A DNA stretch of 64,000 nucleotides from Sorangium aterium (GTDB lineage Bacteria; Myxococcota_A; Polyangia; Polyangiales; Polyangiaceae). Under the pieces are notes generated by a model. It saw nothing but the letters and a program-made list of their open reading frames with translations. It was not told where the DNA came from and did no database searches. Shown here in pieces: positions 9,116-64,000 of the stretch; within the stretch, counting starts at the first letter, position 1, and the number at the start of each line of letters is the position of its first letter. Where the stretch lies: positions 248,001-312,000 of the forward strand of contig NZ_JAQNDK010000001.1 in the NCBI RefSeq assembly GCF_028368935.1, read 5' to 3'. The translations under genes were made by a program, and so were the position numbers.

Positions 9116-9172
9116 CCGGGCCGCGTCGATTCTTTCAAAACGCGTCCGCCGCGCGTCCACTCACCCCAGCGC

Positions 9173-44100: not shown

Positions 44101-46827
44101 GAGGGCGAGCAGATTGGCGTCGGTGAAGAGCGCCGGCGGGATGGTCGACGTGAGGACGTCCACGGTCGCCCGCGAGACCGCATCGGTCATCGGGGGCAGA
44201 TCGATGAGCTCCTCGATCGAGCGGCTCCCGAGCCGCTCCCCTAGCCGCTCGAACTCCCGCTGGACCTCCTCGTCCGTCGGGTGCGGCGACCACGCGACGC
44301 CGACGCGCCGGAGGTATTCAAGGCACGCGCCGACGGCGCGGTCGCTCCAGGTGAGGGTCGTGAAGAGCTCGACACGAGCGCGCGCGACGGCGGCCGCGTC
44401 GACGAGGTCCCGCGCGCGGCGCCAGAGCGCGGAGAGCCGCTCCTCCGCCGCCGGGGCGCCGGTGACGGTCTCGCACTCGGCCAGGTGGAGCTCGATCGCG
44501 AAGGCGAGCTCGTACCGCGTGTCCCAGCCTTCACCTCCGAGGAGCTCGGCGGCGACCGTGAGATAGCTCAGCGCCGAGGCGTACGCCGTGGCTCTCCTGG
44601 CGCGCTCGCCCGCGACGAGGTTGAGCTCGGCCACGCGCTCGCGCTCCTCCGGTGCCGTGATCAGCGAGGCGCCGCGGTTGAGCTGATTCACGATCTCGAA
44701 GATCGTTTCCTCGATCTCCTCGGGCGGCGTCCGCGATGAGAGCAGACGGCCGATCCCGAGGTGCATCGCCGCCCGCTCGTCCTCGGGGATGAGCGAATAG
44801 GCCGCCTCCTGGACGCGGTCGTGGAGAAAGCTGTACGCGCCGTCCGTGCGGACGACGAGCCCTGCGCGGACGGCCTCCCAGAGGGCCGCGTGCAACACCC
44901 CCTCCGAGCGGCCATGGACCATCGCCAGGAGCGCGATCTTTGCGGCGTGTCCCAGACAGGCGAGCTGCTTCACTCCTTCCTGGGTGCTGGCCGGGAGCCG
45001 CATGAGCTTCCCGACCATCAGGGCCACCACGTTGTCGGTGAAGCCCTTGGCGCGGATCTTCGTGACGTCCCACCGCCAGGCCTCTGCGTAGACGTCGAAC
45101 TCGATCAGGCGCTCCTCGTGGAGCGCCATGAGAAACTGGATCGCGAAGAAGGGGTTGCCGCCCGTCCTCTCGTGGACGAGGTCCGAGAGCGGCGCGGCGT
45201 CCTCGCGGCGGCAGTGCAGCGTGTCGCTGACGAGCGCGGCGAGGTGCTCGCGCGAGAGCGGGCCAAGCACGATCTCCCGGACGCTCGCGCCCCCCTTCCG
45301 CATCCGATCGAGCGCCAGCATCAGCGGGTGGGAGCGGGTCACCTCGTTGTCGCGGTAGGCGCCGATGACGAGCAGACACCGCGTCTCGGGGTGCGTCATC
45401 AGATCTTCGAGGAGCCCGAGGCTCGCGGGATCGGCCCACTGGAGATCGTCGAGAAAGAGCGCGAGGGGGTGCGCCTTCCGGGTGAATACCCCGATGAATC
45501 GCCGGAACACGACGCGGAACCGGCTCTGCGCCTCGGTCGGCGGCAGCGCGGCGACCGGCGGCTGCCGCCCGATGACGAGCTCGACCTGCGGGATCACGTC
45601 CACGATGAGCTGTCCGTTGACCCCGAGGGCGGCGAGCAGCCGCTCCCGGACGACCGCGAGCCGCTCCTCGCTCTCGGCAAGGAGCTCGAGCACCAGCTCC
45701 CGGAAGGCCTGGACGAGCGTCGCGTACGGGATATCGCGCTTGTGCTGGTCGAACTTCCCCGAGATGAAGAATCCCCGCTCGCGGACGATCGGCTTGTACA
45801 GCTCGCTCACCAGCGCGCTCTTGCCGATCCCGGAATAACCAGAGACCATGACGATCTCCGGGGCTCCCGTGCCGACCACGCGATCGAACGCGGACAGCAG
45901 CGCGGCGACCTCGTCCTCGCGGCCATAGAGCTTCTGAGGGATCTGGAAGCAGCCGGAGACGTCGCGCTCGGCCAGGGGGAACGGATCGATCCTGCCGGTG
46001 GCCCGGAGCTCCGCCTGGCACCGCTCGAGGTCATGCAGCAGGCTGCTCGCGGTCTGGTAGCGATCCTCCGCCATCTTGGCGAGGAGCTTCAGGACGATCG
46101 CGGAGAGGATCTCGGGCAACTCGGGGACGAACGCGGAGGGCGGCTGCGGCTCGCGGGCGACATGGCAGTGCACCCACTCGAGTGGGTCGCGCGCCTCGAA
46201 GGGCAGGCGCCCCGTGAGCATCTCGTAGAAGGTCACGCCGAGCGCATAGAGGTCGGCGCGGCTGTCGATCGCGCGATTCATGCGCCCTGTCTGCTCCGGA
46301 GACAGGTACGGCAACGAGCCCTCGATGAGCCGCGGAGGCCCCGCCGGCGGCTGCTCGCGGGAGAGGCGGGACGCGAGGCCGAAGTCGGTGAGCTTGACCT
46401 GGCCGGTGGCCGCGTTCACGAGGATGTTCTGGGGCTTGAGATCCTTGTGAAGGATGCCCCGCGCGTGGAGCTCCGCCACGCCGGCCACGATACGGACCGC
46501 CAGGTCGAGGAACCGCTCGGTCTGCATCGGCGCGCCGATGAAGTGATCGAGCGACTCGCCGCCGAAATCCTCCATGACGAGCGCTGGCAGCCCCTCATAC
46601 GTCTCGAGGGCGAGCGGCGTCACGATGGCCTCGTGATTCAGCGTCTTGCCGATCGCGTACTCGTTCTTCAGGCGCTCGACGTCCTGCGGGCGGCTGCGCC
46701 TCGCGTCGATGATCTTCAAGATCACCGAGCGGCCATCGGAGCTCCGGACCGCACGGAGCAGCCTGGTCCTCAGGCCCTCGTGGAGGGTCTCGATGATCGT
46801 GTATGGCGAGGCGGCGCTCATCCCCAT
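41134..46827 (-). CDS. Trifunctional Ser/Thr kinase / ATPase / histidine kinase, copy 1 of 4
   Basis: A 1,897-residue cytoplasmic sensor. Start chosen at 46827 (MGMSAASPYTI); an open GTG at 47001 would add 58 residues. Domains: Ser/Thr kinase at 8-270, with Lys38, HKDLKPQN (Asp129) and DFGLAS, but TLHEG-x-R in place of a GxGxxG loop; STAND/AAA ATPase with Walker A GYSGIGKS (about 330) and Walker B ALFLDDLQWAD; a long helical repeat region to about 1290; GAF 1 (about 1296-1450, TKASQAISGEIFLDRLL); GAF 2 (about 1480-1640, LCDWCIIDVV); HisKA with His near 1670 (ATHELNTPMTSL); HATPase with NLLANAIKFG, DQGIGVDP and GGLGLGLYIS. No receiver domain or response regulator is adjacent. It is the most divergent of the four at the 3' end and lies alone after the STAS cassette. 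Confidence 0.95.
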   Translation of the reverse strand: MGMSAASPYTIIETLHEGLRTRLLRAVRSSDGRSVILKIIDARRSRPQDVERLKNEYAIGKTLNHEAIVTPLALETYEGLPALVMEDFGGESLDHFIGAPMQTERFLDLAVRIVAGVAELHARGILHKDLKPQNILVNAATGQVKLTDFGLASRLSREQPPAGPPRLIEGSLPYLSPEQTGRMNRAIDSRADLYALGVTFYEMLTGRLPFEARDPLEWVHCHVAREPQPPSAFVPELPEILSAIVLKLLAKMAEDRYQTASSLLHDLERCQAELRATGRIDPFPLAERDVSGCFQIPQKLYGREDEVAALLSAFDRVVGTGAPEIVMVSGYSGIGKSALVSELYKPIVRERGFFISGKFDQHKRDIPYATLVQAFRELVLELLAESEERLAVVRERLLAALGVNGQLIVDVIPQVELVIGRQPPVAALPPTEAQSRFRVVFRRFIGVFTRKAHPLALFLDDLQWADPASLGLLEDLMTHPETRCLLVIGAYRDNEVTRSHPLMLALDRMRKGGASVREIVLGPLSREHLAALVSDTLHCRREDAAPLSDLVHERTGGNPFFAIQFLMALHEERLIEFDVYAEAWRWDVTKIRAKGFTDNVVALMVGKLMRLPASTQEGVKQLACLGHAAKIALLAMVHGRSEGVLHAALWEAVRAGLVVRTDGAYSFLHDRVQEAAYSLIPEDERAAMHLGIGRLLSSRTPPEEIEETIFEIVNQLNRGASLITAPEERERVAELNLVAGERARRATAYASALSYLTVAAELLGGEGWDTRYELAFAIELHLAECETVTGAPAAEERLSALWRRARDLVDAAAVARARVELFTTLTWSDRAVGACLEYLRRVGVAWSPHPTDEEVQREFERLGERLGSRSIEELIDLPPMTDAVSRATVDVLTSTIPPALFTDANLLALILGRAVNLSIEHGNSDASSFAYVYLSTCLGPRFGDYQAAYRFGKLGFDLVEKHGLLRFKARVYATFAFMVLPWTRHLRASIELMRRARDVAQETGDLAYVAYTGSSLVSLLLSGGDLLDEAQREAERELEFARRARFHLIVDIYTGNRRLIRALRGLSPDFSTFNDAEFDEGRFERHLMSDPALTVAACWYWIRKLQGRFYAADHASAVEAASQAERLLGSSASFFEAAEYHFYGALARAAHHDAATADERCRHWDAIIAHHQQLQRWAMSCPENFGNRAALVAAEIARIEDRHLDAERLYEEAIHLARASGFVHNEAVACEVASRFYRARGLDRFADTYLGDARTCYARWGADGKVAQLDRENPHLREPRPTPFTATFAARPEQLDLLSVTKASQAISGEIFLDRLLRTLLEVVLEQGGAQRACIVLSQDGRPSIEAEAALEEGGAVMSTLEPGPVDSSRRLPSSVVDYVWRTEERVILHDATADAGRFSGDVYFARNRPRSLLCMPILRRAEVVGLLFLENNLLAGAFTQERLTVLSLLASQAAISLENARLLSKEQSARTAAETAVRRAAFLAEAGEILSGSLDYGETLSRLARLSVRSLCDWCIIDVVDSGEARPAASAHRDPAKQLLLAELRRRYPPGRDSPHRAARVLGDCEPLLLPEISDELLRRYAEDDGHERLLRELGTHSSITVPLVTRGQPLGVLNVVSSVPGRRYGEADLELVQEVARRAAMAIDNSRLYRAAQEAVRMRDEFLTVATHELNTPMTSLTLTLEAMDRAIRSGRIWDPQAMGRQVDRALRQGARLTRLNSELLDVSQIDAARLRLSVAEVDLREVARDVLARFRQDLERAGCSASLRDGGRIVGRWDRSRVDQIVTNLLANAIKFGAGKPIEVVLGEEAGMAWLSVRDQGIGVDPARQECIFERFERAVSNRHYGGLGLGLYISRRIAEAHGGSIRVQSAPGAGAMFIVELPRAGPPRTVDPSALPS

Positions 46828-47120: not shown

Positions 47121-48008
47121 TCAGGCGGGCTTCGCTGCAGCCGGGGCACGCTGCCGGACGGCGATCGCGGCCTTCAGGCCCGCCCGCAGGTCCCGGAAGG
47201 TCTCCACGCCCGACCAGTCGAGCCCGAGCCGCGTGAGCGCCTGCGCCATGGCCGGCGAGATGCCCACGAACGAGCACGCCGCGCCGAGCAGCCGCGCCGC
47301 CCGGACGGCCTTGAGCAGGTAGCCCGAGACGACCTCGTCCGCGACCGACACGCCCGTCACGTCGAGGATCACGCGGTCGGACGCGGTCTCCACGACGCTG
47401 CCGAGCAGGCTCTCCAGGATGAGCGACGATCGCCGGTGGTCGATGGTGCCCACGAGCGGCAGGACGAGCACGCCTTCCCAGACCTGGATCACCGGCGTGG
47501 AGAGCTCGAGCAGCGCCCGCTCCTGCTCCTCGACGAGGCGCAGCTTCCTCTGCAGCTCCTCGGTGCGCACGAGGACCGCGCTCTCCGCCTGCCGCTTGCT
47601 TTCGAGGAGCGCCCGCTCGGCCTGCTTCTCTCGCGTCACGTCGCGCAGCTCGACGAGGATCAGCTCCTCGCCCGCGGCGCTCACCTTGCGCGCGAGCACC
47701 TCGAGGTCGACCGCGCGGCCGTCCTCGCGCGCGGCGCGGCAGGTGAACCGCTTGCGCGCGCCGCCGAGCACGTCCGGCCACGCCCGCCCGAGCGGCTCGA
47801 GCGGGTGCCCGCTCGCCAGCGCCCCCCCGCGGATCGCCAGCGCCTCCGGCCCGGCGAGGCCGTCCCCGAGCAGCTCCCGGATCCGCGCGTTCGCGAACGC
47901 GACATCGCCCGTTCCGCTGTAGACGAGGACGCCGTCGCGGATCGCGTCGAGCACGCCCCGCAACGCCTCGAGCGCCGCGCCCTCCCCCGGCGTGTCGCGC
48001 TCGGTCAT
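47121..48008 (-). CDS. PAS-STAS (RsbR-like) regulator
   Basis: A 295-residue cytoplasmic protein starting at 48008 (MTERDTPGE; GAGG upstream). A PAS domain at about 12-125 (VLDAIRDGVLVYSGTGDVAF) is followed by a coiled coil (REKQAERALLESKRQAESAV) and a STAS domain from about 175, with ELSTPVIQVWEGVLVLPLVG, VILDVTGVSVADEVVSGYLL and LGAACSFVGISPAMA. It is the same STAS class as the 32114-33424 protein and probably takes part in partner switching. It lies 28 nt behind the SpoIIAA-like gene, so the two form an operon. The usual Ser/Thr phosphosites cannot be assigned without alignment. Confidence 0.87.
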   Translation of the reverse strand: MTERDTPGEGAALEALRGVLDAIRDGVLVYSGTGDVAFANARIRELLGDGLAGPEALAIRGGALASGHPLEPLGRAWPDVLGGARKRFTCRAAREDGRAVDLEVLARKVSAAGEELILVELRDVTREKQAERALLESKRQAESAVLVRTEELQRKLRLVEEQERALLELSTPVIQVWEGVLVLPLVGTIDHRRSSLILESLLGSVVETASDRVILDVTGVSVADEVVSGYLLKAVRAARLLGAACSFVGISPAMAQALTRLGLDWSGVETFRDLRAGLKAAIAVRQRAPAAAKPA

Positions 48009-48036
48009 GCCGATGCCTCGCTCGCGGGCTCCGCCC

Positions 48037-48546
48037 TCACGCCGCCCCCGGCGGGTGGGCCCTGCGCAGCCAGGCCAGCGCCTCCTCCTCGGAGAAGAAC
48101 GCGGCGATGTGCGCATCGTCCTCCGCGAACCGGCTGGCGGCGAACTCGTGGTTCTCGACGACCTGCTCCGCGCCCGGCGCGGCCTCCCTGGGCAGGAGCG
48201 TCGCGACCCGCTTCAGCCCGGCCGCGTAGGCCTTCGGCATGATCTCGTCTCGCTGCCAGTCGTTGATGCCGTCCCAGCTCGACTTGCAGTCGCGTATGTC
48301 GATGAGGCACAGCGGGCCCCCGCACTCCAGGAAAACATCGTAGAAATGACCGCCGATGATCTCCTTCATCTCCTCGTCGAGCGGCGTGCCATACCAGCGC
48401 GCCACGAAGACCCCGGGGATGCGGCCAGGCTTCTCGATGCGGTGGATGCGCTCGCCAACGACGTTGAAGGTCTCCACGACGTCGCCGTCGTGCACGACGC
48501 GGATGCCGGTCCGGGTCTCGATGGGCCTCTTGAGTGTCTTTGTCAT
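48037..48546 (-). CDS. SpoIIAA/STAS-like small protein
   Basis: A 169-residue protein from the ATG at 48546 (GGGAG 6 nt upstream). The sequence fits the SpoIIAA-like (STAS/SEC14) family: an opening HDGDVVETFNVVGERI, a central ALCLIDIRDC-like strand (GGPLCLIDIRDCKSSWDG), AAGLKRVATLLP and a C-terminal FFSEEEALAWLRRA, which is the F-S-x-E-x-E-A-L-x-W-L hallmark of this family. These proteins are thought to act as antagonists or sensors in signalling. It precedes the PAS-STAS gene and together they may form a partner-switch pair beside the giant kinases. The frame continues open upstream, but the ribosome binding site supports this start. Confidence 0.75.
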   Translation of the reverse strand: MTKTLKRPIETRTGIRVVHDGDVVETFNVVGERIHRIEKPGRIPGVFVARWYGTPLDEEMKEIIGGHFYDVFLECGGPLCLIDIRDCKSSWDGINDWQRDEIMPKAYAAGLKRVATLLPREAAPGAEQVVENHEFAASRFAEDDAHIAAFFSEEEALAWLRRAHPPGAA

Positions 48547-49956: not shown

Positions 49957-52900
49957 CTAGCCCGGCAGGGCGCGCGGCGCTGCCCCGGGCGGCGGCCCGG
50001 TCCGCGGCAGCTCGACGATGAACGTCGCCCCGGCGCCGAGCGCGCTCTGGACACGGATCGAGCCGCCGTGCGCCTCCGCGATCCGGCGGCTGATGTACAG
50101 GCCGAGCCCCAGCCCGCCGTAGTGCCTGTCGGACACCGCTCGCTCGAACCGCTCGAAGATCTGCGCCTGGTGCGCCGGGTCGATCCCGATCCCGTGATCC
50201 CGCACCGAGAGCCGCGCCGTCCCGGCCTCCCCGCCGATGGAGATCTCCACGGGCTTGCCCGCCCCGAACTTGATCGCGTTGGCGAGAAGGTTCGAGACGA
50301 TCTGGTCCACGCGGGAACCATCCCAGAGGCCCACGACCCGGCCGCGCTCGCGCAGCGAGACCGCACACCCGGCGCGCGCCAGATCCAGCTTGAACCGCGC
50401 GAGCGCGTCGCGGACGACCTCCCCGAGATCGACCTCCACCACATCGAGCCTCAGCCGAGCCGCGTTGATCCGCGAGACGTCGAGCAGCTCGCTGTTCAGT
50501 CGGGTCAAGCGCGCCGCCTGCCGCAGCGCGCGGTCGATCTGCCTGCCCATGGCCTGCGGATCCGAAGTTCGACCCGATCGGATGGTCCGATCCATGGCCT
50601 CGAGCGAGAGCGTGAGCGACGTCATCGGCGTGTTGAGCTCGTGCGTCGCCACGGTGAGGAACTCGTCCCGCGCGCGGATGGCCTCCTGGGCGGCGCGGTA
50701 GAGCCGCGCATTGTCGATCGCGATCGCCGCCCGGCGCGCCACTTCTTGCACGAGCTCGAGATCGGCATCCCCGTAGCGGCGCTCCGGCACGGACGAGATA
50801 ATGCTCAGCGCCCCGATCGCCTGTCCCCGCGCCACGAGCGGTACGGTGATGAAGCCGTGGATCCCGAGCTCGCGGATGAGCCTGGCCTTCCCGTCGTCCT
50901 CGCAGTATTCCCGGAGGATTGCCTCGGAGACTTCGGGGACCAGGAGTGGCTCGCCGCTCCGCAGGATCCTGGCCGCCGGGCGGGGCGAAACCCGGCCAGG
51001 AGGATACCGCCGCTCTAGCTCCTCCAACAACGACTCCTTCGCAGGGTCCCTGTGTGCCCATGAGATTCGCCGGATCTCTCCGCCTTCCACCAGGTCGATC
51101 ACGCACCAGTCGCAGAGCGATCGTACCGAGAGCTGCGCGACACGCGACAACGTCTCGGCGTAATCGAGCGACCCGGAGAGGATGTCCCCGGCCTCGGCCA
51201 GGAAGGCCGCGCGGCGCTCCGACGCCTCGGCCGCGGTCCGCGCGGCCTGCTCGTTTGCGAGCAGCCGCGCGTTCTCCAGGGAGATCGCTGCTTGTGTGGC
51301 GAGCAGCGAGAGGGCGGTCAGCCGCTCCGGCGTGAACGCGCCCTCGACGAGGTTGTTCTCGAGGTAGAGCAGGCCCACCACCTCGCCCTGCCTCAGGATG
51401 GGCGCGCAGAGCAGCGACTTGGGCCTGTATCGAGCGAAGTAGCCGTCGCCGGAGAACTTGCCCGCGTCCGCGGCGGCGTCGCTCAGGATGACACGCTCCT
51501 TCGTCCGCTGAACGTAGCGGACGAGCGACATGGGGACGCGCCGCGAGCCATCCTCCGCCTTCGGCGGGAGGAGGGTCATCGCCGCCCCTCTCTCTTCGAG
51601 GGTGGCCTCCGCCTCGATGGAGAGGCGCCCGTCCTTGTACAGGAGGAGGCAAACCCTCTGCGCCCCGCCCTGCTCGAGGACGACTGCGAGCAGCGTGCGG
51701 AGCAGCTTGTCGAGGACGAGCTCGCTCGACAGGGTCTGCGATGCCTTGGTCACCGAGAGCAGGTCGAGCTGCTCGGACCGCACCGCGAAGGAAGCGGTTG
51801 GGGCGAGCGGCGTCTTCTCCCAGAGGCGCGGATGTTGCTGGTCGATCTGCTTGACCTTGCCGTCCGCCCCCCAGCGGTCGTAACAGGCGCGGGCCTCGCG
51901 GAGGTACGTGTCGGCAATGAGGTTGAACCCTCGCGTCCGGTAAAACCTCGACGCGATCTCGTGGGCAAGCGCCTCGTTGTGGACAAAACCGCTTTCGCGC
52001 GCCGAGCGGATGGCCTGCTCGTACAGATGCTCCGCCTTGTCCCATTCGCTGCCGATGCGCGCAATCTCGGCGCCGACCAGCGCCGCGCGATTGCGGAAGT
52101 TCTCCGGGCAGCTCGAGGCCCAGATCTGGAGCTGATGGTGGTGGGCGACGAGCGCCGTGAGGTGCTGCGACCGCTCGTCGGCGGATGGGGGTGCCGCGTC
52201 GTGGCGCGCCGCCCGCGCGAGCGCGCTGTAGAAATGGTATTCGGTGAGCGCGAGGAACACCGGCGACGTCCGGAGGAGCCGCTGCGCCTTCGCCCCGGCC
52301 TCGAGGGCAGAGGCGTAATCACCCCCGTAGCAATGCGCTTGCAGCTTGTGGAGCCAGTACCAGCCCGCGGCGATCGAGAGGCGCGGATCTCGCTCGAGGC
52401 GCCGCTCGAACCGGCCCTCGTCGAAGTCGTCATCGTTGAAGGAGCCGAGGACCGGCAAGAGCCCCCGGAGCGTCCGGATGAACCCGAGCTGTCCGGTGAT
52501 GAGATCGACGACGAGGCCGAACTTCGCCTTCCGCGTGAACTCGAGGGCTACCTCGGCCTCTCGCTGCACCTCGCCGAGCGGATCTCCCTCCGTGAGGAGG
52601 AGCGTCACCAAGACGGCGGACAGATAGGACGAATACGTGAGATCGCCGGTCTCCTGCGCCGCGCGAAAGCCGCGTCGTAATGGATCGAGGCAGGTGCGCA
52701 CGTGCCTCGTCCAGGGGTTGATGGTGTACCAGAAGACAAAATAGACGCGGGCCTTGAAGCGGAGTATCGCGCGCTTCTCCATCAGATCGAGGCCGAGCTT
52801 GCCGAAGCGAAACCCCGCCTGATAATCGCCGAAGTGCGATCCGAGGAGCGAGCCGAGCCGGACGTAGGCGAGGCATGATGCGTCGCAGTTGCCATGCTCG

Positions 52901-55659
52901 AGGCTGAGGTTCACCATGCGAGCGACGAGGAGGCTCAGCAGGTTCTTGTCGGAGAACAAGGCCGGCACATCGCACGACGAGAGGACGTCCATGGTCGCGC
53001 GGCAGTCCGGGTCGGTCATCGTGGGCAAATCGAGGAGCGCCTCGAGCGGGCGGCTCCCGACCTTTCGCCACATCCGCTCGTATTCCTGCTGGAGTTCCGC
53101 GTCCGACGGGTGCGCCGGCCACGCGACGCCGACGCGCCGTAGGTACTCGAGGCACGCCTCCACGCTGCGGTCGCTCTGATCCAGGGTCGTGTAAAGCGCC
53201 ATGCGCACGCACGTGACGGCGGCGAAGTCGACGACGTTCCGGGCACGGCGCGAGAGCATGGCCAGCCGCTCCTCCGCTGTCGGCAGCTCGCCGGTCAGGT
53301 ACTCGCACTCGGCCCGGTAGAGCTCGAGCGCGAAGGCGAGCTCGTAACGAAGCGACCAGCTGTCCTCGGTGAGGAGCGCCGCGCCGGCGGCGAGGTACGC
53401 CAGCGCCGAGGCGTAGGCGGTCGACCCCTTGGCGCGCTTGCCCGCGACGAGGTTGAGCTCGGCGACCCGTTCTCGCTCGCGCCGCGACGTGATGAGCCCC
53501 GCGCCGCGGTTGAGCTGGTTCACGATTTCGAAGATCTTCTCCTCGAGCTCTTCGGGCGGCATATGCGACGCGAGCAGCCGGCCGATCCCGAGATGCACTG
53601 CCGCCCGCTCGCCTTCGGAGATGAGCGAATAAGCCGCCTCCTGGACGCGGTCGTGGAGGAACTTGTACGTGCCGTTCAAGCGAAAGACGAGCCCCTCATG
53701 AACTGCGTCCCAAAGATCCGTGTGCACGTCCTGCTCCGAGCCGCCCTGAACGATCGTCAGGAGAGTGACCTCCACGATGCCTCCCAGACAGGCGAGCTGC
53801 GTCAGCGCTCCCTGGGTGCGCCGGAGGAGCCGCGCGAGCTTGCCGACCATCAGGTCGACCACGTTGTCGGTGAACCCCTTCTCGCGGATCTTCGCCACGT
53901 CCCACCGGAAGGCCTCGGCACGCTCGTCGAACTCGATCAGCCGCTCTTCGTGCAGCGCGGAGAGGAACTGGATCGCGAAGAACGGGTTGCCAGCCGTCTT
54001 CTCGTAAACGAGGTTCGAGAGCGGCGCGGCGTCCTCGCGGCGGCAGCGAAGCGCGTCGCTGACGAGCGCGGCGAGGTGGTCCCGGGAGAGCGAGCCGAGC
54101 ACGATGTCCGTGATGCGCGCCCCCTCCTTCCGCGCCTGGTCGAGCGCTCGCAGGAGCGGATGCGAGGGCGTCACCTCGTTGTCGCGGTACGCGCCGATGA
54201 CGAGGAGAAATCGCGTTTCGGGGTGCGTCACCAGATCATGAAGGAGCCCGAGGCTCGCAGCATCGGTCCACTGAAGATCGTCGAGGAAGAGCGCGAGGGG
54301 GTGGTCCTTCCGGGCGAACACCCCGATGAAGTGCAGGAATACGATGCGGAACCGGTTCTGCGCCTCCGCCAGCGGGAGCTCAGGAACCGGCGGTTGCCGG
54401 CCGATGACGAGCTCGAGCTGAGGGATAACCTCTACGATGAGCTGTCCGTTGATCCCGAGGGCGCCGAGCAACCGCTGCCGGATGGCCGCGACCCCGTCCT
54501 CGTCCTCGGCGAGGATCTCCAGCACGAGCTCCCTGAAGGCCTGGACGAGCGTGAAGTACGGGATGTCGCGCTTGTATTGTTCGAACTTCCCCGAAAGAAA
54601 GACCGCTCGCTCCCGGACGATCGGCTTGTACAGCTCGTGGACCAGCGCCGACTTGCCGATGCCCGCATAGCCTGAGACCAGGACGAGCTCGGATGCGCCC
54701 GTGCCCATCACGCGCCCGAACGCGCGCAGCAGCGCGGCCACGTCCTCCTCGCGGCCATAGAGCTTCTGAGGGATCTCGAAGCGATCGGAGACGTCGTGCT
54801 CGACCAAGGGGAACGGCTCGATCCGGCCGGTGGCTCGCCACGCCGAAAGGCACCGATCGAGGTCGTGCTTGAGGCCGCGCGCGGTCTGATAGCGATCCTC
54901 CGCCATCTTCGCCAGGAGCTTCAGGACGAGCGCCGAGAGCACCCCAGGGAGCTCCGGAACGAGCACGGAGGGCGGCGGCGGGACGCGGGCGACGTGACAG
55001 TGCACCCACTCGAGCGGGTCCCGTGCCTCGAACGGCAGTCGCCCGGTGAGCATCTCGTAGAACGTCACGCCGAGCGCGTAGAGATCGGTGCGGCTGTCGA
55101 TCGCCCGGTTCATCCGCCCCGTCTGCTCCGGAGCCAGGTACGGCAAGGAGCCCTCGATGAGCCGGGGAGGCCCTGCCGGCGACTGCTCGCGGGAGAGGCG
55201 GGACGCGAGGCCGAAGTCGGTGAGCTTGACCTGCCCGGTAGCTGCGTTGACGAGGATGTTCTGGGGCTTGAGATCCTTGTGGATGACGTCCCGCTGGTGG
55301 AGCTCCGCCACGCCGGCCACGATACGGACCGCGAGCTCGAGGAACCGATCGACCTTCATCGGGGCGCCGAGCAAGCGGTCGAGCGACTCACCGCCGAAAT
55401 CCTCGACGACGAGCGCCGGCAGCCCCTCGTACGTCTCGAGGGCGAGCGGCGCCACGATGGCCTCGTGGCTCAGCGCCTTGCCGATCGCATACTCGTGCTT
55501 CAGGCGCTCGATGTCCTTCGGGCGGCTGCGCCTCGGGTCGAGGACCTTCAGGATCACCGGGCAGCCATCGGCGCTCCGGACGGCGCGGAGCAGGCGGGTC
55601 GTTTGGCCCTCGTGGAGGGTCTCGGTGATCGCGTAGGGGGAGGCCGGGCTCACCGCCAT
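49957..55659 (-). CDS. Trifunctional Ser/Thr kinase / ATPase / histidine kinase, copy 2 of 4
   Basis: A 1,900-residue protein starting MAVSPASPYAITETLHEG. The Ser/Thr kinase has Lys38, HKDLKPQN (Asp129), DFGLAS and LAPEQT; the ATPase has Walker A GYAGIGKS and Walker B LALFLDDLQW; the GAF pair and histidine kinase (His near 1673, ATHELNTP; DHGIGIDP; GGLGLGLYIS) follow as in copy 1. Its kinase end is almost identical in DNA to copy 3 (209 nt with one difference at 50291-50499), which indicates gene conversion. No good ribosome binding site precedes the ATG, and the frame is open upstream for 57 codons from an ATG at 55830 (MAGDCGRECGARPAP). The gene is separated from copy 3 by 289 nt with its own promoter-like element. 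Confidence 0.95.
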   Translation of the reverse strand: MAVSPASPYAITETLHEGQTTRLLRAVRSADGCPVILKVLDPRRSRPKDIERLKHEYAIGKALSHEAIVAPLALETYEGLPALVVEDFGGESLDRLLGAPMKVDRFLELAVRIVAGVAELHQRDVIHKDLKPQNILVNAATGQVKLTDFGLASRLSREQSPAGPPRLIEGSLPYLAPEQTGRMNRAIDSRTDLYALGVTFYEMLTGRLPFEARDPLEWVHCHVARVPPPPSVLVPELPGVLSALVLKLLAKMAEDRYQTARGLKHDLDRCLSAWRATGRIEPFPLVEHDVSDRFEIPQKLYGREEDVAALLRAFGRVMGTGASELVLVSGYAGIGKSALVHELYKPIVRERAVFLSGKFEQYKRDIPYFTLVQAFRELVLEILAEDEDGVAAIRQRLLGALGINGQLIVEVIPQLELVIGRQPPVPELPLAEAQNRFRIVFLHFIGVFARKDHPLALFLDDLQWTDAASLGLLHDLVTHPETRFLLVIGAYRDNEVTPSHPLLRALDQARKEGARITDIVLGSLSRDHLAALVSDALRCRREDAAPLSNLVYEKTAGNPFFAIQFLSALHEERLIEFDERAEAFRWDVAKIREKGFTDNVVDLMVGKLARLLRRTQGALTQLACLGGIVEVTLLTIVQGGSEQDVHTDLWDAVHEGLVFRLNGTYKFLHDRVQEAAYSLISEGERAAVHLGIGRLLASHMPPEELEEKIFEIVNQLNRGAGLITSRRERERVAELNLVAGKRAKGSTAYASALAYLAAGAALLTEDSWSLRYELAFALELYRAECEYLTGELPTAEERLAMLSRRARNVVDFAAVTCVRMALYTTLDQSDRSVEACLEYLRRVGVAWPAHPSDAELQQEYERMWRKVGSRPLEALLDLPTMTDPDCRATMDVLSSCDVPALFSDKNLLSLLVARMVNLSLEHGNCDASCLAYVRLGSLLGSHFGDYQAGFRFGKLGLDLMEKRAILRFKARVYFVFWYTINPWTRHVRTCLDPLRRGFRAAQETGDLTYSSYLSAVLVTLLLTEGDPLGEVQREAEVALEFTRKAKFGLVVDLITGQLGFIRTLRGLLPVLGSFNDDDFDEGRFERRLERDPRLSIAAGWYWLHKLQAHCYGGDYASALEAGAKAQRLLRTSPVFLALTEYHFYSALARAARHDAAPPSADERSQHLTALVAHHHQLQIWASSCPENFRNRAALVGAEIARIGSEWDKAEHLYEQAIRSARESGFVHNEALAHEIASRFYRTRGFNLIADTYLREARACYDRWGADGKVKQIDQQHPRLWEKTPLAPTASFAVRSEQLDLLSVTKASQTLSSELVLDKLLRTLLAVVLEQGGAQRVCLLLYKDGRLSIEAEATLEERGAAMTLLPPKAEDGSRRVPMSLVRYVQRTKERVILSDAAADAGKFSGDGYFARYRPKSLLCAPILRQGEVVGLLYLENNLVEGAFTPERLTALSLLATQAAISLENARLLANEQAARTAAEASERRAAFLAEAGDILSGSLDYAETLSRVAQLSVRSLCDWCVIDLVEGGEIRRISWAHRDPAKESLLEELERRYPPGRVSPRPAARILRSGEPLLVPEVSEAILREYCEDDGKARLIRELGIHGFITVPLVARGQAIGALSIISSVPERRYGDADLELVQEVARRAAIAIDNARLYRAAQEAIRARDEFLTVATHELNTPMTSLTLSLEAMDRTIRSGRTSDPQAMGRQIDRALRQAARLTRLNSELLDVSRINAARLRLDVVEVDLGEVVRDALARFKLDLARAGCAVSLRERGRVVGLWDGSRVDQIVSNLLANAIKFGAGKPVEISIGGEAGTARLSVRDHGIGIDPAHQAQIFERFERAVSDRHYGGLGLGLYISRRIAEAHGGSIRVQSALGAGATFIVELPRTGPPPGAAPRALPG

Positions 55660-55948: not shown

Positions 55949-58900
55949 TCAGCCGGGCGGGCAGCTCGACTCGGCCCCGCGCGGCGGTCCGTTCCGCGGC
56001 AGCTCGACGATGAACGTCGCCCCGGCGCCGAGCGCGCTCTCGACGCGGATCGACCCGCCGTGCGCCTCCGCGATCCGGCGGCTGATATACAGGCCGAGCC
56101 CCAGCCCGCCGTAGTGCCTGTCCGACACCGCGCGCTCGAACCGCTCGAAGATCTGCGCCTGACGCGCCGGGTCGATCCCGATCCCGTGATCCCGGACCGA
56201 GAGACGCGCCGCCCCCGCCTCCTCGCCGATGGCGATCTCCACAGGCTTACCCGCCCCGAACTTGATCGCATTGGCGAGCAGGTTCGAGACGATCTGGTCC
56301 ACGCGGGAACCATCCCAGAGGCCCACGACCCGGCCGCGCTCGCGCAGTGAGACCGCACACCCGGCGCGCGCCAGATCCAGCTTGAACCGCGCGAGCGCGT
56401 CGCGGACGACCTCCCCGAGATCGACCTCCACCACATCGAGCCTCAGCCGAGCCGCGTTGATCCGCGAGACGTCGAGCAGCTCGCTGTTCAGGCGGGCCAG
56501 GCGCGCCGCCTGCCGCAGTGCGCGGTCGACCTGCCGGCCCATGGCCTGTGGGTCCAAGGGACGGCACGAGCGGAGCGCCCGATCCATGGCCTCGAGCGTG
56601 AGCGTGAGCGACGTCATCGGCGTGTTGAGCTCGTGCGTCGCCACCGTCAGGAACTCGTCCCGAACGCGGACGGCCTCCTGGGCAGCGCCGTAGAGCCGCG
56701 CGTTGTCGATCGCTATCGCGGCCCGGCGCGCCACCTCCTGCACCAGCGCGAGATCAGCATCCCCGTAGCGGATCTCCGGCGCGGACGAGACAACGGTCAG
56801 CGCCCCGATCGGCTGTCCACGCGCCAGCAGCGGCACGACGATGACGCTGTGCGTCCCGAGCTCGCGCATAAGCCTCTCGTGACCGCCGTCCTCGCAGTAC
56901 TGCCGGAGGACCTCTTCGGAGAGCTCGGGGAGCAGGAGCGGCTCGCCGAGCCGGAGGACCCTGGATGCAGGGCGACGCGATTCCCAGCGAGAGGGATACC
57001 GCCGCTCCAGCTCCTCGATAAGCGGCTCCTTCGACGGGTCCCTGTGCGCCCATGACAGCCGCCGGACCGCCCCACCTTCCAGGGCGTCGATGGCGCACCA
57101 GTCGCAGAGCGTCTGCACCGACAGCCGCGCGACGCGCGACAGCGTCTCTCCGCAATCGAGAGACGCAGAGAGGATCTCGCCTGCCTCGGCCAGGAAGGCC
57201 GCGCGCCGCTCCGCCGACTCGGCCACGGTCCGCGCGGACTGCTCCTTAGCGAGGAGCCGAGCGTTCTCCAGGGAGACGGCTGCCTGTGTGGCGAGGAGCG
57301 AGAGGGCGGTGAGCCGATCCGGCGTGAACGCGCCGGCGAGGAGGTTGTTCTCGAGGTAGAGCAGGCCCGCCACCTCGGACCGCCTCAGGATGGGCACACA
57401 GAGGAGTGATTTGGACCGACGCCGTGCGACGTAGTCGTCGCCGGAGAACTTGCCCGCATCAGCCACCGCGTCGTGCAGGATCACGCTCTCCTTCGTCCGC
57501 TGCACATAATGAACGAGCGATAGGGGGACCCGCTGCCATGAAGACTCCCCCGGCAAAGGCGCGAGGTGGATCGTCGTCCCCCCGCTCTCGTTCTCATCGA
57601 GCGTCGCCTCCGCTTCGATGGAGAGGCGCCCGTCCTGACACAGAATGAGGCAAGCTCGCTGCGCGCCCCCCTGCTCGAGGACGAACGTGAGCAGCGTGCG
57701 CAGGAGCTTCTCGAGGACGATCTCGCTTGAAATGGTCTGCGATGCCTTGAGCACCGAGAGCAGGTCGAGCTCCTCGGACCGCGCCGCGAAGGAGGCGGCC
57801 TGGGCGAGCAGCCTCGCGTCCCAGAGGCGCGGATTCTGCTGGTCGATCTGCTTGACCTTGCCGTCCGCCCCCCAGCGAGCGTAGCAGGCGCGGGCCTCGC
57901 GCAGGTACGTGTCCGCGATCAGATCGAACCCCCGCATCCGGTAAAACCTCGACGCGATCTCGTAGCCCAGCGCCTCGTTGTGGACGAAGCCGCTCTCGCG
58001 CGCAGAGCGGATCGCCTGCTCGTACAGCTGCGCCGCCTTGTCCCATTCCTCGCCGATGCGCGCGATCTCGGCGCTGACCAGCGCGGCGCAGGCGCCGAAG
58101 TTTTCGGGGCAGCTCGAAGCCCAGACCTCGAGCTGCCGGTGGTGGACGACGAGCTCGACGAGGTGCGAGGGCCGCTCATCGGCAGGTGCAGCGTCATGGC
58201 GGCCCGCCCGCGCGAGCGCACCATAGAAATGGTACTCGGCGACATCGAGAAACGACGGCATCATCCAGAGAACCCTCTGCGCTCTCGCCGCGGACTCGAT
58301 GGCAGAAGCGTGATCGCCCGCGTGAAAGTGCGCTTGCACCTTGCGGATCCAATACAAGCACCGGGCATACGCGAGGCGCGGATCGTCCTCGAGGCGCCGT
58401 TCGAACCGGCGCTCGTCGAAGTGGTCGTCGTCGAACGAGCCGAAAGCCAGCGTCTGGCCTCTGAGCATCCGGGTGAGCTGCAGCAGCGTGGTGATGGTGT
58501 CCATGGAGAGACCGAACCTCGCCTTCCGCGTGAATTCGAGCCCCCTCTCGGCTTCTCGCTGCACTTCGCCGAGCGGATCTCCCTCGGCAAGGAGGAGCGC
58601 GACCAAGGCCGTGCGTATACAGGACGAATACGTGAGATCGCCGGTCTCCGCCGCCGCATAAAAGGAGCGTCGCAAGGGCCCGACGCCGGTGCGCATGTGT
58701 CTCGTCCAGGGATTGATCACGTACCAAAAGACCAGGTCGACGCGGGCCTTGAAGCGGAGCAGCCCGCCCTTCTCCGCGAGGTCGAAGCCGAGCTTGCCGA
58801 AGTGAAACCCCGCGCGGTAGTCGCCGAAGCGTGGCCCGAGGCTCGTCCCGACCCGAACGTAGGCGAGGCACGATCCGTCGCTGTTGCCACGCTCGAGGCT

Positions 58901-61651
58901 GAGGTTCACCACGCGAGCGTTCATGAGGCAGAGCAGGTTCTCGTCGGTGAACAATGCCGCCGCGTCGCACGACGTGAGGACGTCGATGGTTGCGCGGCAG
59001 TCCGGATCGGTCATCGGGGGCAAGTCGAGGATCTCCTCGAGCGGGCGGCTCCCGAGCTTTTGCCACATCCGCTCGTATTCTTGCCGGACCTCCTCGTCCG
59101 TCGGGTGCGGCGACCAGTCGACGCCAATGCGCCGCAGGTACTCGAGGCAGATCTCGACGGCGAGCTCGCTTCGATCCAGCGTCGTGTAGAGATCCACACG
59201 CGCGAACGTGACGGCGGCGACGTCGACGGTGCTCCGGGCGCGGCGCGCGAGCTCCGAGAGCCGCTCCTCCGCCGCCCCGAGCTCGCCAGTCAGAAATTCG
59301 CACGCGGCCCGGTGGAGCGCGAGCGCGAAGGCGAGATCGTACCGCCGGTCCCAGCTGTCCTCTTCCAGGAACGCCGCGCCCGCGGCGAGGTACTTCAGCG
59401 CCGACGCGTAGGCCGTCGACCCCTTCGCGCGCTTGCCCGCGATGAGATTGAGCTCAGCCGCCCGCTCCCGCTCCTCGCGCGACGTGAGCAGCGCGGCCCC
59501 CCGGTTGAGCTGGTTGACGATCTCGAAGATCTTCTCCTCGAGCTCCTCCGGCGGCGTCCGGGACGCGAGCAGCCTGCCTATTCCGAGGTGCGCCGCCGCC
59601 CGCTCGCCTTCAGGGATGAGCGAATAGGCCGCCTCCTGCACCCGATCGTGGAGGAACTTGTACGTGCCGTCCAGACGGAAGGCGAGCCCCTCGCGCGCTG
59701 CGTCCCGGAGATCCGCGTGCACGTCCTCCTCCGAGCCGCCGTGGACTATCGTCAGCAGGGCGACCTCCGCGGTGTTTCCCAGACAGGCGAGCTGCTTCAG
59801 CGCTCTCTGGGTGCGCGGAGAGAGCCGCACGAGCTTGCCGACCATCAGGTCGATGACGTTGTCGGTGAAGCCCTTTCCGCGGATCCTCGCCACGTCCCAC
59901 CGGAAGGCCTCGGCACCCTCGTCGAACTCGATCAGCCGCTCTTCGTGGAGCTCGGTGAGGAACTGGATGGCGAAGAAGGGATTCCCGCCCGTCTTCTCGT
60001 GAATGAGGCGGGAGAGCGGCGCGGCGTCCTCGCGGCGGCAGTGCAGCGCGTCGCTGACGAGCGCGGCGAGGTCCTCGCGGGAGAGCGGGCCAAGCACGAT
60101 GGCCGAGATGCGCGTGCCCTCGTTCCGCACGTGGTCGAGCGCCAGCATGAGCGGGTGCGAGGAGGTCACCTCGTTGTCGCGAAACGCGCCGATGACGAGG
60201 AGATGGCGTGTCTCGGGGTGCGTCACCAAATCGCGAAGGAGCTCGAGGCTCGCCGAATCGGTCCACTGGAGATCGTCGAGGAAGAGCGCGAGCGGGTGCT
60301 CCTGCCGGGCGAACACCCCGATGAAGTGTCGGAACACGACGCGGAACCGGTGCTGCGCCTCGGCCGGCGGGAGCTCGGGGACCGGCGGTTGCCGGCCGAT
60401 GATGAGCTCGATCTGGGGGATGACGTCCACGATGAGCTGTCCGTTGCTCCCGAGCGCGCCGAGCAACCACTGCCGCCATGCCGCGATCCGGTCCTCCGCC
60501 TCGGCGAGGATCTCGAGCACGAGCTCCCGGAACGCCTGGACGAGCGTGGCGTAAGGGATATCGCGCTTGTATTGGTCGAATTTCCCCGAGAGGAAGAGCG
60601 CTCGTTCTCGGACGATCGGCCTGTAGAGCTCATGGACCAGCGTCGACTTGCCGATGCCGGAATAGCCGGAGACCAGGACGAGCTCGGGGGATCCCGTGGC
60701 CACCAGGCGGTCGAACGCGCGCAGCAGGATGGCCGCGTCGTCCTCGCGACCGTAGAGCTTCTGAGGGATCTGGAAGCGGCCGGAGACATCGCGCTCGGCC
60801 AGCGGGAACGGCTCGCTCCTGCCGATCGCTCGGCGCTGCGCCGCGCACCGCTCGAGGTCGTGCTTGAGGCCGCGGGCGGTCTGGTAACGATCCTCCGCCA
60901 TCTTGGCCAGGAGCTTCAGCACGAGCGCCGAGAGCACCTCGGGCAGCTCTGGCACGAGCGCCGAGGGCGGCGGCGGGGCGCGGGCTACATGGCAGTGCAC
61001 CCACTCCAGCGGGTCCCGCGCCTCGAAGGGCAGGCGTCCGGTGAGCATCTCGTAAAAGGTGACGCCGAGCGCGTACAGGTCGGCGCGGCTGTCGATCGCC
61101 CGGTTCATTCGCCCCGTCTGCTCCGGAGACAGGTACGGCAACGACCCCTCGATGAGCCGCGGAGGCCCTGTCGGCGGCTGCTCGCGGGAGAGGCCGGACG
61201 CGAGGCCGAAGTCGGCGAGCTTCACCTGGCCGGTGGCCGTGTTGACGAGGATGTTCTGCGGCTTGAGATTCTTGTGGATCACCTCCTGCTCGTGGATCGC
61301 CGCCACGCACGCCGCGATGCGGACCGCGAGGTCGAGGAACCGCTCGTCCTTCATGGGCGCGCCGATGAAGCGGTCGAGCGGCTCACCGCCGAAATCCTCG
61401 AGGACGAGCGCCGGCAGCCCCTCGTACGTCTCGAGGGCGAGCGGCGTCACGACGGCCTCGTGGTCCAGCGCCTTGCCGATCGCGTACTCGTGCTTCAGGT
61501 GCTCGATGTCCTTCGGGCGGCTGCGCCTCGGATCGAGGACCTTCAAGACCACCGGGAGGCCATCCGCGCTCCGGACCGCGCGCAGCAGGCTGACGCGTTG
61601 GCCCTCGTGAAGGGTTCCGGTGACCGTGTAGGAGGGAGCGCTCGTGTCCAT
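55949..61651 (-). CDS. Trifunctional kinase/ATPase/histidine kinase, copy 3, with altered Ser/Thr kinase active site
   Basis: A 1,900-residue protein starting MDTSAPSYTVTGTLHEG. Architecture as in its neighbours: Ser/Thr kinase-like domain (8-270), Walker A GYSGIGKS, Walker B LALFLDDLQW, helical repeats, two GAF domains, HisKA (His near 1673), HATPase. The kinase catalytic loop reads HKNLKPQN: residue 128, which must be Asp for phosphotransfer, is Asn (codon AAT at 61270-61268, GAT in copies 1 and 2). Lys37 and DFG are kept, so ATP may still bind; the Ser/Thr kinase is probably catalytically dead or crippled. The histidine kinase half looks intact and is nearly identical to copies 2 and 4. 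The leader upstream is out of frame with this gene. Confidence 0.95.
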   Translation of the reverse strand: MDTSAPSYTVTGTLHEGQRVSLLRAVRSADGLPVVLKVLDPRRSRPKDIEHLKHEYAIGKALDHEAVVTPLALETYEGLPALVLEDFGGEPLDRFIGAPMKDERFLDLAVRIAACVAAIHEQEVIHKNLKPQNILVNTATGQVKLADFGLASGLSREQPPTGPPRLIEGSLPYLSPEQTGRMNRAIDSRADLYALGVTFYEMLTGRLPFEARDPLEWVHCHVARAPPPPSALVPELPEVLSALVLKLLAKMAEDRYQTARGLKHDLERCAAQRRAIGRSEPFPLAERDVSGRFQIPQKLYGREDDAAILLRAFDRLVATGSPELVLVSGYSGIGKSTLVHELYRPIVRERALFLSGKFDQYKRDIPYATLVQAFRELVLEILAEAEDRIAAWRQWLLGALGSNGQLIVDVIPQIELIIGRQPPVPELPPAEAQHRFRVVFRHFIGVFARQEHPLALFLDDLQWTDSASLELLRDLVTHPETRHLLVIGAFRDNEVTSSHPLMLALDHVRNEGTRISAIVLGPLSREDLAALVSDALHCRREDAAPLSRLIHEKTGGNPFFAIQFLTELHEERLIEFDEGAEAFRWDVARIRGKGFTDNVIDLMVGKLVRLSPRTQRALKQLACLGNTAEVALLTIVHGGSEEDVHADLRDAAREGLAFRLDGTYKFLHDRVQEAAYSLIPEGERAAAHLGIGRLLASRTPPEELEEKIFEIVNQLNRGAALLTSREERERAAELNLIAGKRAKGSTAYASALKYLAAGAAFLEEDSWDRRYDLAFALALHRAACEFLTGELGAAEERLSELARRARSTVDVAAVTFARVDLYTTLDRSELAVEICLEYLRRIGVDWSPHPTDEEVRQEYERMWQKLGSRPLEEILDLPPMTDPDCRATIDVLTSCDAAALFTDENLLCLMNARVVNLSLERGNSDGSCLAYVRVGTSLGPRFGDYRAGFHFGKLGFDLAEKGGLLRFKARVDLVFWYVINPWTRHMRTGVGPLRRSFYAAAETGDLTYSSCIRTALVALLLAEGDPLGEVQREAERGLEFTRKARFGLSMDTITTLLQLTRMLRGQTLAFGSFDDDHFDERRFERRLEDDPRLAYARCLYWIRKVQAHFHAGDHASAIESAARAQRVLWMMPSFLDVAEYHFYGALARAGRHDAAPADERPSHLVELVVHHRQLEVWASSCPENFGACAALVSAEIARIGEEWDKAAQLYEQAIRSARESGFVHNEALGYEIASRFYRMRGFDLIADTYLREARACYARWGADGKVKQIDQQNPRLWDARLLAQAASFAARSEELDLLSVLKASQTISSEIVLEKLLRTLLTFVLEQGGAQRACLILCQDGRLSIEAEATLDENESGGTTIHLAPLPGESSWQRVPLSLVHYVQRTKESVILHDAVADAGKFSGDDYVARRRSKSLLCVPILRRSEVAGLLYLENNLLAGAFTPDRLTALSLLATQAAVSLENARLLAKEQSARTVAESAERRAAFLAEAGEILSASLDCGETLSRVARLSVQTLCDWCAIDALEGGAVRRLSWAHRDPSKEPLIEELERRYPSRWESRRPASRVLRLGEPLLLPELSEEVLRQYCEDGGHERLMRELGTHSVIVVPLLARGQPIGALTVVSSAPEIRYGDADLALVQEVARRAAIAIDNARLYGAAQEAVRVRDEFLTVATHELNTPMTSLTLTLEAMDRALRSCRPLDPQAMGRQVDRALRQAARLARLNSELLDVSRINAARLRLDVVEVDLGEVVRDALARFKLDLARAGCAVSLRERGRVVGLWDGSRVDQIVSNLLANAIKFGAGKPVEIAIGEEAGAARLSVRDHGIGIDPARQAQIFERFERAVSDRHYGGLGLGLYISRRIAEAHGGSIRVESALGAGATFIVELPRNGPPRGAESSCPPG

Positions 61652-62023: not shown

Positions 62024-64000
62024 TCAGCCCGGTAGGGAGCCCGGCTCGGCCCCGCGCGGCGGTCCGGTCCGCGGCAGCTCGACGATGAACGTCGCCCCGG
62101 CGCCGAGCGCGCTCTCGACGCGGATCGAGCCGCCGTGCGCCTCCGCGATCCGGCGGCTGATGTACAGGCCGAGCCCCAGCCCGCCGTAGTGCCTGTCCGA
62201 CACCGCGCGCTCGAACCGCTCGAAGATCTGCGCCTGACGCGCCGGGTCGATCCCGATCCCGTGATCCCGGACCGAGAGCCGCGCCGCCCCCGCCTCCTCG
62301 CCGATGGCGATCTCCACAGGCTTGCCCGCCCCGAACTTGATCGCGTTGGCGAGCAGGTTCGAGACGATCTGGTCCACGCGGGAACCATCCCAGAGGCCCA
62401 CGACCCGGCCGCCCTCCCGCAGCGAGACCGCACACCCGGCGCGCGCCAGATCCAGCTTGAACCGCGCGAGCGCGTCGCGGACGACCTCCCCGAGGTCGAC
62501 CTCCGCCACATCGAGCCTCAGCCGAGCCGCGTTGATCCGCGAGACGTCGAGCAGCTCGCTGTTCAGGCGGGTCAGGCGCGCCGCCTGCCGCAGCGCGCGG
62601 TCGACCCGCCTGCGCATGGCCTGCGGATCCCACGTGCGACCCGACTGGAGGGCTCGATCCACGGCCTCGAGCGTGAGCGTGAGCGACGTCATCGGCGTGT
62701 TGAGCTCGTGCGTCGCCACCGTCAGGAACTCGTCCCGCACGCAGACGGCATCCTGGGCAGCGCGGTAGAGCTGCGAATTGTCTATCGCGATCGCCGCCCG
62801 GCGCGCCACTTCCTGCACCAGCGCGAGATCGGCCTCCCCGTAGCGATGCCCCGGCACACACGAGACGATGTTCAGCACGCCGATCCTCTGTCCTCGCGCC
62901 ACCAGCGGCACGATGATCGAGCTCACCGCCCCGAGCTCGCGGATGAGCCTCGCGTGCCCGTCGTCCTCGGCGTATTCCCGGAGGACCTCTTCGGAGAGCT
63001 CGGGGAACAGGAGCGGCTCACCGCCCCGCAGGGCCTTGAGCGCCGGGTGAGGCGAATCCCAGCCAGGCGGATACCGCCGCTGTAGCTCCGCGAGCAACGA
63101 CTCCTTCGCAGCGTCTCGGTGCGCCCACGAGAGCCGGCGGATCACCCCGCCCTCCACGAGGTCGATGATGCACCAGTCGCAGAACGTTCGCACCGACAGC
63201 CGCGCGATGCGCGACAGCGTCTCTCCGTAATCGAGCGACCCGGAGAGGATGTCCCCGGCCTCCGCCAGGAAGGCTGCGCGCCGCTCCGCCGCCTCGGCCG
63301 CGTTCCGCGCCGACTGCTCCCTGGAGAGCAGCCGCGCGTTCTCCAGCGAGATCGCCGCCTGCGTGGCCAGGAGCGAGAGGGCGGTGAGCCGCTCCGGCGT
63401 GAATGCGCCGGCGAGAAGGTCGTTCTCGAGGTAGAGCAGGCCCGCCACCTCGGACCGCCTCAGGATGGGCGCGCAGAGGAGCGATCTGGGCCTGCGCCGC
63501 GCGAAGTAATCGTCGCTGGAGAACTTGCCCGCGTCCGCGATCGCGTCGTGCAGGATGACGCGCTCCTTCGTCCGTTGTACGTAGCGGACGAGCGACATGG
63601 GGACGCGCCGCGAGACGTCCTCTGTCGAACGCGAGAGGACGGTCGTCGCCGCCCCGCGCTCTTCGAGGGTCGCCTCGGCTTCGATGGAGAGGCGCTCGCC
63701 CTGAGCCACGACGAGGCAAGCTCGCTGCGCGCCGCCCTGCTCGAGGACGACCGTGAGCAGCGTACACAGGAGCCTGTCGAGGACGATGTCGCTCGAGATG
63801 GCCTGCGACGCCTTGAGCACCGAGAGCAGGTCGATCTCCTCGGACCGCGCCGCGAAGGTGGCGCTGTGAGGGTTCGTCCTCGCCTCCCAGAGTCGAGGAT
63901 TCCGCTGCTCGATCTGCTTGACCTTGCCGTCCGCCCCCCAGCGCGCGTAGCAGGCGCGGGCCTCGCGGAGGTACGTGGCGGCGAATACGTCGAACCCTCG
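62024..64000 (-). CDS. Trifunctional kinase/ATPase/histidine kinase, copy 4, 5' part beyond the window
   Basis: The last 658 codons of a fourth copy; the frame is open to the right edge (the first codons read RGFDVFAATYLREARACYAR, matching the end of the helical region in copies 2 and 3). It carries GAF 1 (LKASQAISSDIVLDRLL), GAF 2 (TFCDWCIIDLV) and a complete histidine kinase (ATHELNTPMTSL, NLLANAIKFG, DHGIGIDP, GGLGLGLYIS). Over the ATP-binding part the DNA differs from copy 3 at only about five positions in 270. Whether its N-terminal Ser/Thr kinase has Asp or Asn cannot be seen. Confidence 0.92.
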   Translation of the reverse strand, partial: RGFDVFAATYLREARACYARWGADGKVKQIEQRNPRLWEARTNPHSATFAARSEEIDLLSVLKASQAISSDIVLDRLLCTLLTVVLEQGGAQRACLVVAQGERLSIEAEATLEERGAATTVLSRSTEDVSRRVPMSLVRYVQRTKERVILHDAIADAGKFSSDDYFARRRPRSLLCAPILRRSEVAGLLYLENDLLAGAFTPERLTALSLLATQAAISLENARLLSREQSARNAAEAAERRAAFLAEAGDILSGSLDYGETLSRIARLSVRTFCDWCIIDLVEGGVIRRLSWAHRDAAKESLLAELQRRYPPGWDSPHPALKALRGGEPLLFPELSEEVLREYAEDDGHARLIRELGAVSSIIVPLVARGQRIGVLNIVSCVPGHRYGEADLALVQEVARRAAIAIDNSQLYRAAQDAVCVRDEFLTVATHELNTPMTSLTLTLEAVDRALQSGRTWDPQAMRRRVDRALRQAARLTRLNSELLDVSRINAARLRLDVAEVDLGEVVRDALARFKLDLARAGCAVSLREGGRVVGLWDGSRVDQIVSNLLANAIKFGAGKPVEIAIGEEAGAARLSVRDHGIGIDPARQAQIFERFERAVSDRHYGGLGLGLYISRRIAEAHGGSIRVESALGAGATFIVELPRTGPPRGAEPGSLPG

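Follow-up and report, generated by a model that had tools for sequence, protein, structure and literature searches.

A Ser/Thr kinase domain with asparagine in place of its catalytic-base aspartate was found in a large multidomain protein of Sorangium aterium, and this domain is predicted to be a pseudokinase that may regulate the histidine kinase carried in the same chain. The gene is the third member (copy 3) of a tandem array and is located at 55949..61651 on the minus strand of the window, the 64,000-nucleotide stretch of DNA analysed here (C1:248001-312000 of the 13.5 Mb, 7-contig source genome, labelled G000). It forms an uninterrupted open frame of 1900 codons for a protein of 1900 aa (P0001). 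The plus strand of the window reads ATT at 61268-61270, which gives AAT on the coding strand (61270..61268, minus) as the codon for Asn128, and the codons around this residue (CAC AAG AAT CTC AAG CCG CAG AAC) translate to HKNLKPQN. Alignment with PknB placed Asn128 at the HRD Asp. An earlier note, made from the letters of the window, had claimed a single GAT to AAT change in copy 3, and this was borne out in the assembly sequence, as copies 1 and 2 have GAT and read HKDLKPQN. In addition, all nine relatives included in a codon alignment showed GAT or GAC at the position of residue 128.

The remaining active site of the kinase domain (60857..61627, minus; Pfam Pkinase, residues 9-265) was intact at Lys37, Glu55, Asn133 and Asp147. 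In the accessible text of a 2025 review, a pseudokinase is recognised by loss of the beta3 Lys, the HRD-Asp or the DFG-Asp (PMC12599244), and copy 3 falls under this definition through the replacement of its HRD-Asp by Asn128 while Lys37 and Asp147 remain. The modelled kinase domain, built with 31 aligned sequences, showed a canonical kinase fold with a mean predicted local distance difference test score (pLDDT) of 90.3 and a predicted template modelling score (pTM) of 0.90, and its nearest solved structures were those of PknB. Matches of copy 3 to phage-defence kinases (PADLOC PD-T4-6, mad6 and others) were taken as general kinase similarity, since the best 25 of 33 matches all fell in the kinase domain.

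The domain order of copy 3 by Pfam was Ser/Thr kinase, AAA_16 ATPase, a repeat region, two GAF domains, HisKA and HATPase. Thus Pkinase, GAF, HisKA and HATPase were all present in one chain, which is the combination that marks HstK-type proteins. The AAA_16 domain was located at 60191..60760 (minus, residues 298-487), the HisKA domain at 56453..56662 (minus, residues 1664-1733) and the HATPase_c domain at 55994..56314 (minus, residues 1780-1886). The histidine kinase motifs were complete, with the phospho-acceptor His1673 in ATHELNTP, Asn1794 and a DxGxG box. The N box and G1 box of HATPase_c are intact, and GYSGIGKS at residue 329 and LALFLDD at residue 454 of AAA_16 are Walker A-like and Walker B-like, respectively. 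The claim in the earlier note of a pseudokinase attached to a live histidine kinase therefore stands on both sides as a prediction from sequence. The same note had proposed that copy 3 could serve its sisters as a decoy, scaffold or partner. Pfam TPR_CHK1 matched copy 2 above the cut-off, and the Pfam matches of copies 1-3 with E ≤ 0.001 included no receiver domain. A simple 19-residue hydropathy scan, run with no dedicated predictor, showed no convincing transmembrane stretch in P0001; the lone window scoring ≥1.6 fell inside the second GAF match.

Overall, copy 3 is judged, with a modest lean in favour, to be a pseudokinase that probably binds nucleotide and regulates its attached histidine kinase in cis. 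One G-to-A transition (Asp128Asn) would have turned its Ser/Thr kinase domain into a natural pseudokinase in which folding and Mg-nucleotide binding most likely persist, with poor or no phosphate transfer. Nucleotide binding is considered likely because Lys37, Glu55, Asn133 and Asp147 are retained and because HER3 and JAK JH2 provide a precedent. The domain may then exert nucleotide- or partner-dependent conformational control over the ATPase, GAF and histidine kinase parts of its own chain, and the output would leave the protein through the histidine kinase by His-Asp phosphotransfer.

The substitution was examined among 12 closely related kinase domains, namely the four array copies, a further locus of the same genome (L006), two copies from genome G003, one from G004 (So0157-2), two from G002 and two from Polyangium, a count that leaves out a decayed G004 fragment without the catalytic loop. 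The HRD Asp was kept in 11 of these 12 domains with copy 3 as the sole exception, so that the idea of an Asn common to close relatives found no support. The DFG Asp was lost in one G003 copy (GLG) and in one G002 copy (GLG), the latter also having Ser for Asn133. The ratio of nonsynonymous to synonymous substitution (dN/dS), computed from codon alignments with a Nei-Gojobori style script, was 0.27 between the kinase domains of copies 3 and 4; the remaining four computed pairs gave 0.29-0.32. With copy 2 and the G004 copy as outgroups, nine lineage-specific residues were counted in the copy 3 kinase domain and eight in that of copy 4. At sites otherwise invariant in the close clade, copy 3 showed three private changes (R51H, R122Q and D128N), and ten other rows, L006 being left out, showed 1-9 each. 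Relaxed selection on the kinase domain of copy 3 found no support, as neither dN/dS nor the private changes were raised.

A census of the wider family produced 349 loci, which gave 225 distinct proteins with both kinase and ATPase domains, 200 of them complete. The FastTree tree, whose support values are less trustworthy, contained 224 proteins, of which 223 had a readable motif; the beta3 column was unreadable in 17 of the 224 tree rows. Of 461 public loci the best 80 (79 distinct) were used, and clade sizes are therefore not to be read as frequencies. The HRD-Asp was lost in 22 of 223 kinase domains, which formed 11 all-lost clades and required at least 11 changes by parsimony. Seven of these clades were single Asn rows, copy 3 among them, and the six other separate Asn cases were distributed over other genomes (five) and another place in the source genome (one). 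Loss of the DFG-Asp was more extensive, with 118 of 223 kinase domains in 19 clades and at least 16 changes by parsimony. The earlier note had treated the Asn as a special feature of copy 3, a view that found no support, since catalytic residues were lost independently many times within the family. The same note had proposed looking for the Asn in orthologues, and here the outcome was divided, as it occurred in no other close-clade member and in six separate members elsewhere in the family.

One clade of 76 members (support 100) had Gly at the DFG position in 76/76, the HRD Asp in 74/76 and the beta3 Lys absent in all 71 readable members (five were gapped). It was mostly proteobacterial, Bradyrhizobium and Paraburkholderia being commonest (public loci L061-L139, and L309 of G001). 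At ATPase identities of 0.5-0.7, kinase domains of this clade were as alike as intact ones (0.55-0.62 vs 0.51-0.58). The phospho-acceptor His was aligned in 77 of the 84 complete histidine kinase-type members that belong to this clade or are without the HRD- or DFG-Asp (55/61 in the clade and 22/23 elsewhere; the misses were two Asp and five alignment gaps). Among the 47 complete histidine kinase-type members with the Lys and both Asp, it was aligned in 42 (five gaps). Across four Sorangium genomes, the HRD- or DFG-Asp was missing from 43 of 119 family members (G000 11/42, G001 15/31, G003 6/17 and G004 11/29). Control Ser/Thr kinases of the same genus from outside the family showed no such loss (0/60), which argues that loss in the family is more than chance. 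For G000 and G004 alone the comparison was 22/71 family members vs 0/60 controls (Fisher p = 3.5e-7, relatedness ignored); the controls (20 from G000, 40 from G004) were hand-picked among matches to the copy 3 sequence, which favours intact motifs, and the family side of the comparison leaves out six distant rows (L158, L159, L211, L212, L213, L217) and one whose motif could not be read. Judged from the alignments, catalytic-residue loss is rampant in this family and the predicted dead domains stay conserved.

Some family members were found to carry STAS (L150, L144, L023 and others) or an HWE histidine kinase (L030) instead of HisKA/HATPase. The possibility that a STAS output needs a live kinase and a histidine kinase output does not found no support, as catalytic residues were lost in 11/35 STAS vs 27/68 histidine kinase or HWE proteins (p = 0.52) among complete proteins of the four Sorangium genomes, setting aside 15 that carry neither type of output and one with an unreadable motif.

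The array itself was larger than the three copies given in the earlier note, as a whole-genome search showed four tandem copies at C1 289.1-294.8, 298.0-303.6, 304.0-309.7 (copy 3) and 310.0-315.7 kb. In the window, copy 1 is located at 41134..46827 and copy 2 at 49957..55659, both on the minus strand, and the C-terminal part of copy 4 at 62024..64000 (minus). The kinase domain of copy 4, at about 314.8-315.7 kb of C1 and beyond the window, has the HKDLKPQN sequence. Copies 3 and 4 were sisters in the kinase domain (support 100/99) with 90% identity, while the kinase domain of copy 2 grouped with the G004 copy (support 97/95). A different relationship was shown by the HATPase stretch, in which copies 2, 3 and 4 grouped together (support 100/100), their end branches measuring 0.008-0.017. 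DNA identity among these three copies was 97-98% over residues 1741-1800 and 93-98% over residues 1801-1860, compared with 65-94% in the 60-residue windows upstream, and pairs involving copy 1 or G004 remained at 81-89% over the HATPase stretch. L006 was aligned in the frame that follows its frameshift, which makes its identity values in these comparisons too low. This incongruence between the HATPase and kinase-domain trees suggests that the HATPase output domain was homogenised by gene conversion across the predicted pseudokinase copy and two HKD copies, over 56012..56431 (minus), about residues 1741-1880 of copy 3.

The spacing was 372 bases from the stop of copy 4 to the start of copy 3 and 289 bases from the stop of copy 3 to the start of copy 2. 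A PEPCK gene was located upstream of copy 4, and a STAS-domain protein (47121-48116), a possible partner of the array, was located together with a cation-efflux protein between copies 1 and 2. Elsewhere on C1, at about 2.10-2.16 Mb, the source genome has another tandem array of this family, with eight copies found (loci L010, L013-L015, L017, L020-L022; L337-L340) and the catalytic-loop Asp present in 8/8.

Several observations weigh against a pseudokinase put to use. The constraint test cannot tell a useful pseudokinase from a very recent single mutation, and since no close relative has Asn, there is no sign that D128N was retained over time. At ATPase identities of 0.7-0.9 the kinase domains of the 76-member clade were less alike than intact ones (0.65-0.71 vs 0.74-0.78), and other kinase-lost histidine kinase proteins were slightly less alike (0.38-0.48 vs 0.41-0.51 at ATPase identities of 0.3-0.6). 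In the same genome, L006 (L006/L333, G000:C5 about 789.7 kb) is frameshifted within its kinase domain, by either a real lesion or an assembly error. In So0157-2, frame breaks and internal deletions have reduced the gene adjoining the intact copy to a remnant (L250 about 8560-10560; 7300.6-7302.6 kb). The fragmented neighbour in So0157-2 and the L006 frameshift suggest that the loss in copy 3 may be decay as well. The array resembles a birth-and-death family, and the decay reading stays alive on that account. The Asp-to-Asn change would then be the first, neutral step of a redundant copy towards becoming a pseudogene, in a growing and shrinking array, and its being private to copy 3 within the close clade fits such an origin. 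However, the frame of copy 3 is open over all 1900 codons, its kinase-domain dN/dS and private changes are not raised, and the 93-98% identity of residues 1741-1860 to copies 2 and 4 indicates a recent exchange of sequence with them; early decay is accordingly held to be unlikely.

An atypical active kinase, in which the Asn variant keeps a low Ser/Thr kinase activity in the manner of HER3, is considered improbable. The retained nucleotide- and metal-binding residues of copy 3 would suit it. Activity can also survive an Asp-to-Asn change, since according to the accessible text of PMC4718504 HER3 with this substitution binds ATP and shows autophosphorylation in vitro, and JAK2 JH2 is termed a low-activity pseudokinase. 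The same text names this Asp as the catalytic base, without which catalysis is not efficient, and reads its absence from ILK, along with other changes, as a pointer to inactivity (PMC4718504). An assembly or sequencing error, with G as the true base, is very improbable, even though a single base known from the assembly alone is concerned and the kinase-domain frameshift in another family gene of the same assembly could itself be an error. The array shows no other disturbance of its long open frames, the nearby private R122Q shows that the region truly differs from the sister copies, and the six other separate Asn cases, mostly in other genomes, also speak against an error.

A wider reading is offered tentatively and would sooner fail than hold. 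Across the family in general, the kinase domain would sense nucleotide and control the histidine kinase allosterically, with phosphotransfer optional and repeatedly switched off through single substitutions. Copy 3 would be such a switch, and live and dead sisters might compete for or cross-regulate the same gene-converted HATPase output. Regardless of this, copy 3 is a very clean further case of a known pseudokinase kind and not a singular event. Copies 3 and 4, as sisters differing at the catalytic base, offer a natural comparison, and with Asn/Asp swaps the pair could show whether phosphorylation or conformation is the means by which a Ser/Thr kinase domain steers a histidine kinase. This question also matters for HstK-type proteins and those of fungal group X.

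Bacterial pseudokinases are described as largely unexplored by experiment in the accessible text of the 2025 review (PMC12599244), and no bacterial pseudokinase joined to a histidine kinase in one chain was found in a literature search that left subscription papers mostly outside. Among the families covered in that text, CP1 consists of cytosolic Ser/Thr (pseudo)kinases with a COG3899 predicted ATPase and often FhlA (GAF) or PAS domains, and about 40% of its members are without one or more catalytic motifs (PMC12599244). In copy 3 an AAA_16 domain follows the kinase domain and may correspond to the COG3899 ATPase, and by the simple hydropathy scan copy 3 resembles CP1 in the absence of a transmembrane region. 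A histidine kinase in the same chain and tandem arrays of live and dead copies are differences, as these are not mentioned in the accessible text of PMC12599244. If the copy 3 protein is a CP1 member, the family-level pseudokinase pattern is already covered by that description.

The cyanobacterial cbSTKIII dual kinases (Alr0709/Alr0710) combine a Ser/Thr kinase with GAF and HisKA in a single chain, have a KD and not an RD motif and occur as adjacent duplicated copies, as far as the accessible text describes them (PMC2176072). They are like the array in these respects, and HstK and cbSTKIII would be one kind, from which copy 3 differs by HKN. The fungal group X histidine kinases (Candida Chk1, S. 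pombe Mak2/Mak3), from the parts of the literature available, share with copy 3 a kinase-related domain, an AAA-16 ATPase and GAF before the histidine kinase, and differ in having the receiver domain that was not found in copies 1-3. For Candida Chk1, with the same domain order, the accessible text reports that deletion of kinase and ATPase eliminated tissue invasion like deletion of the full gene, and that further deletion of GAF partly restored it (PMC9069115). Finally, in HER3 and JAK JH2 the catalytic Asp is likewise replaced by Asn and nucleotide is still bound, according to the accessible text of PMC4718504. This likeness is in working only, with no kinship to copy 3 beyond the fold. The canonical alphaC Glu contact is absent in HER3 and JAK JH2 whereas Glu55 is kept in the copy 3 sequence, and they regulate tyrosine kinases whereas the output enzyme of copy 3 is a histidine kinase.

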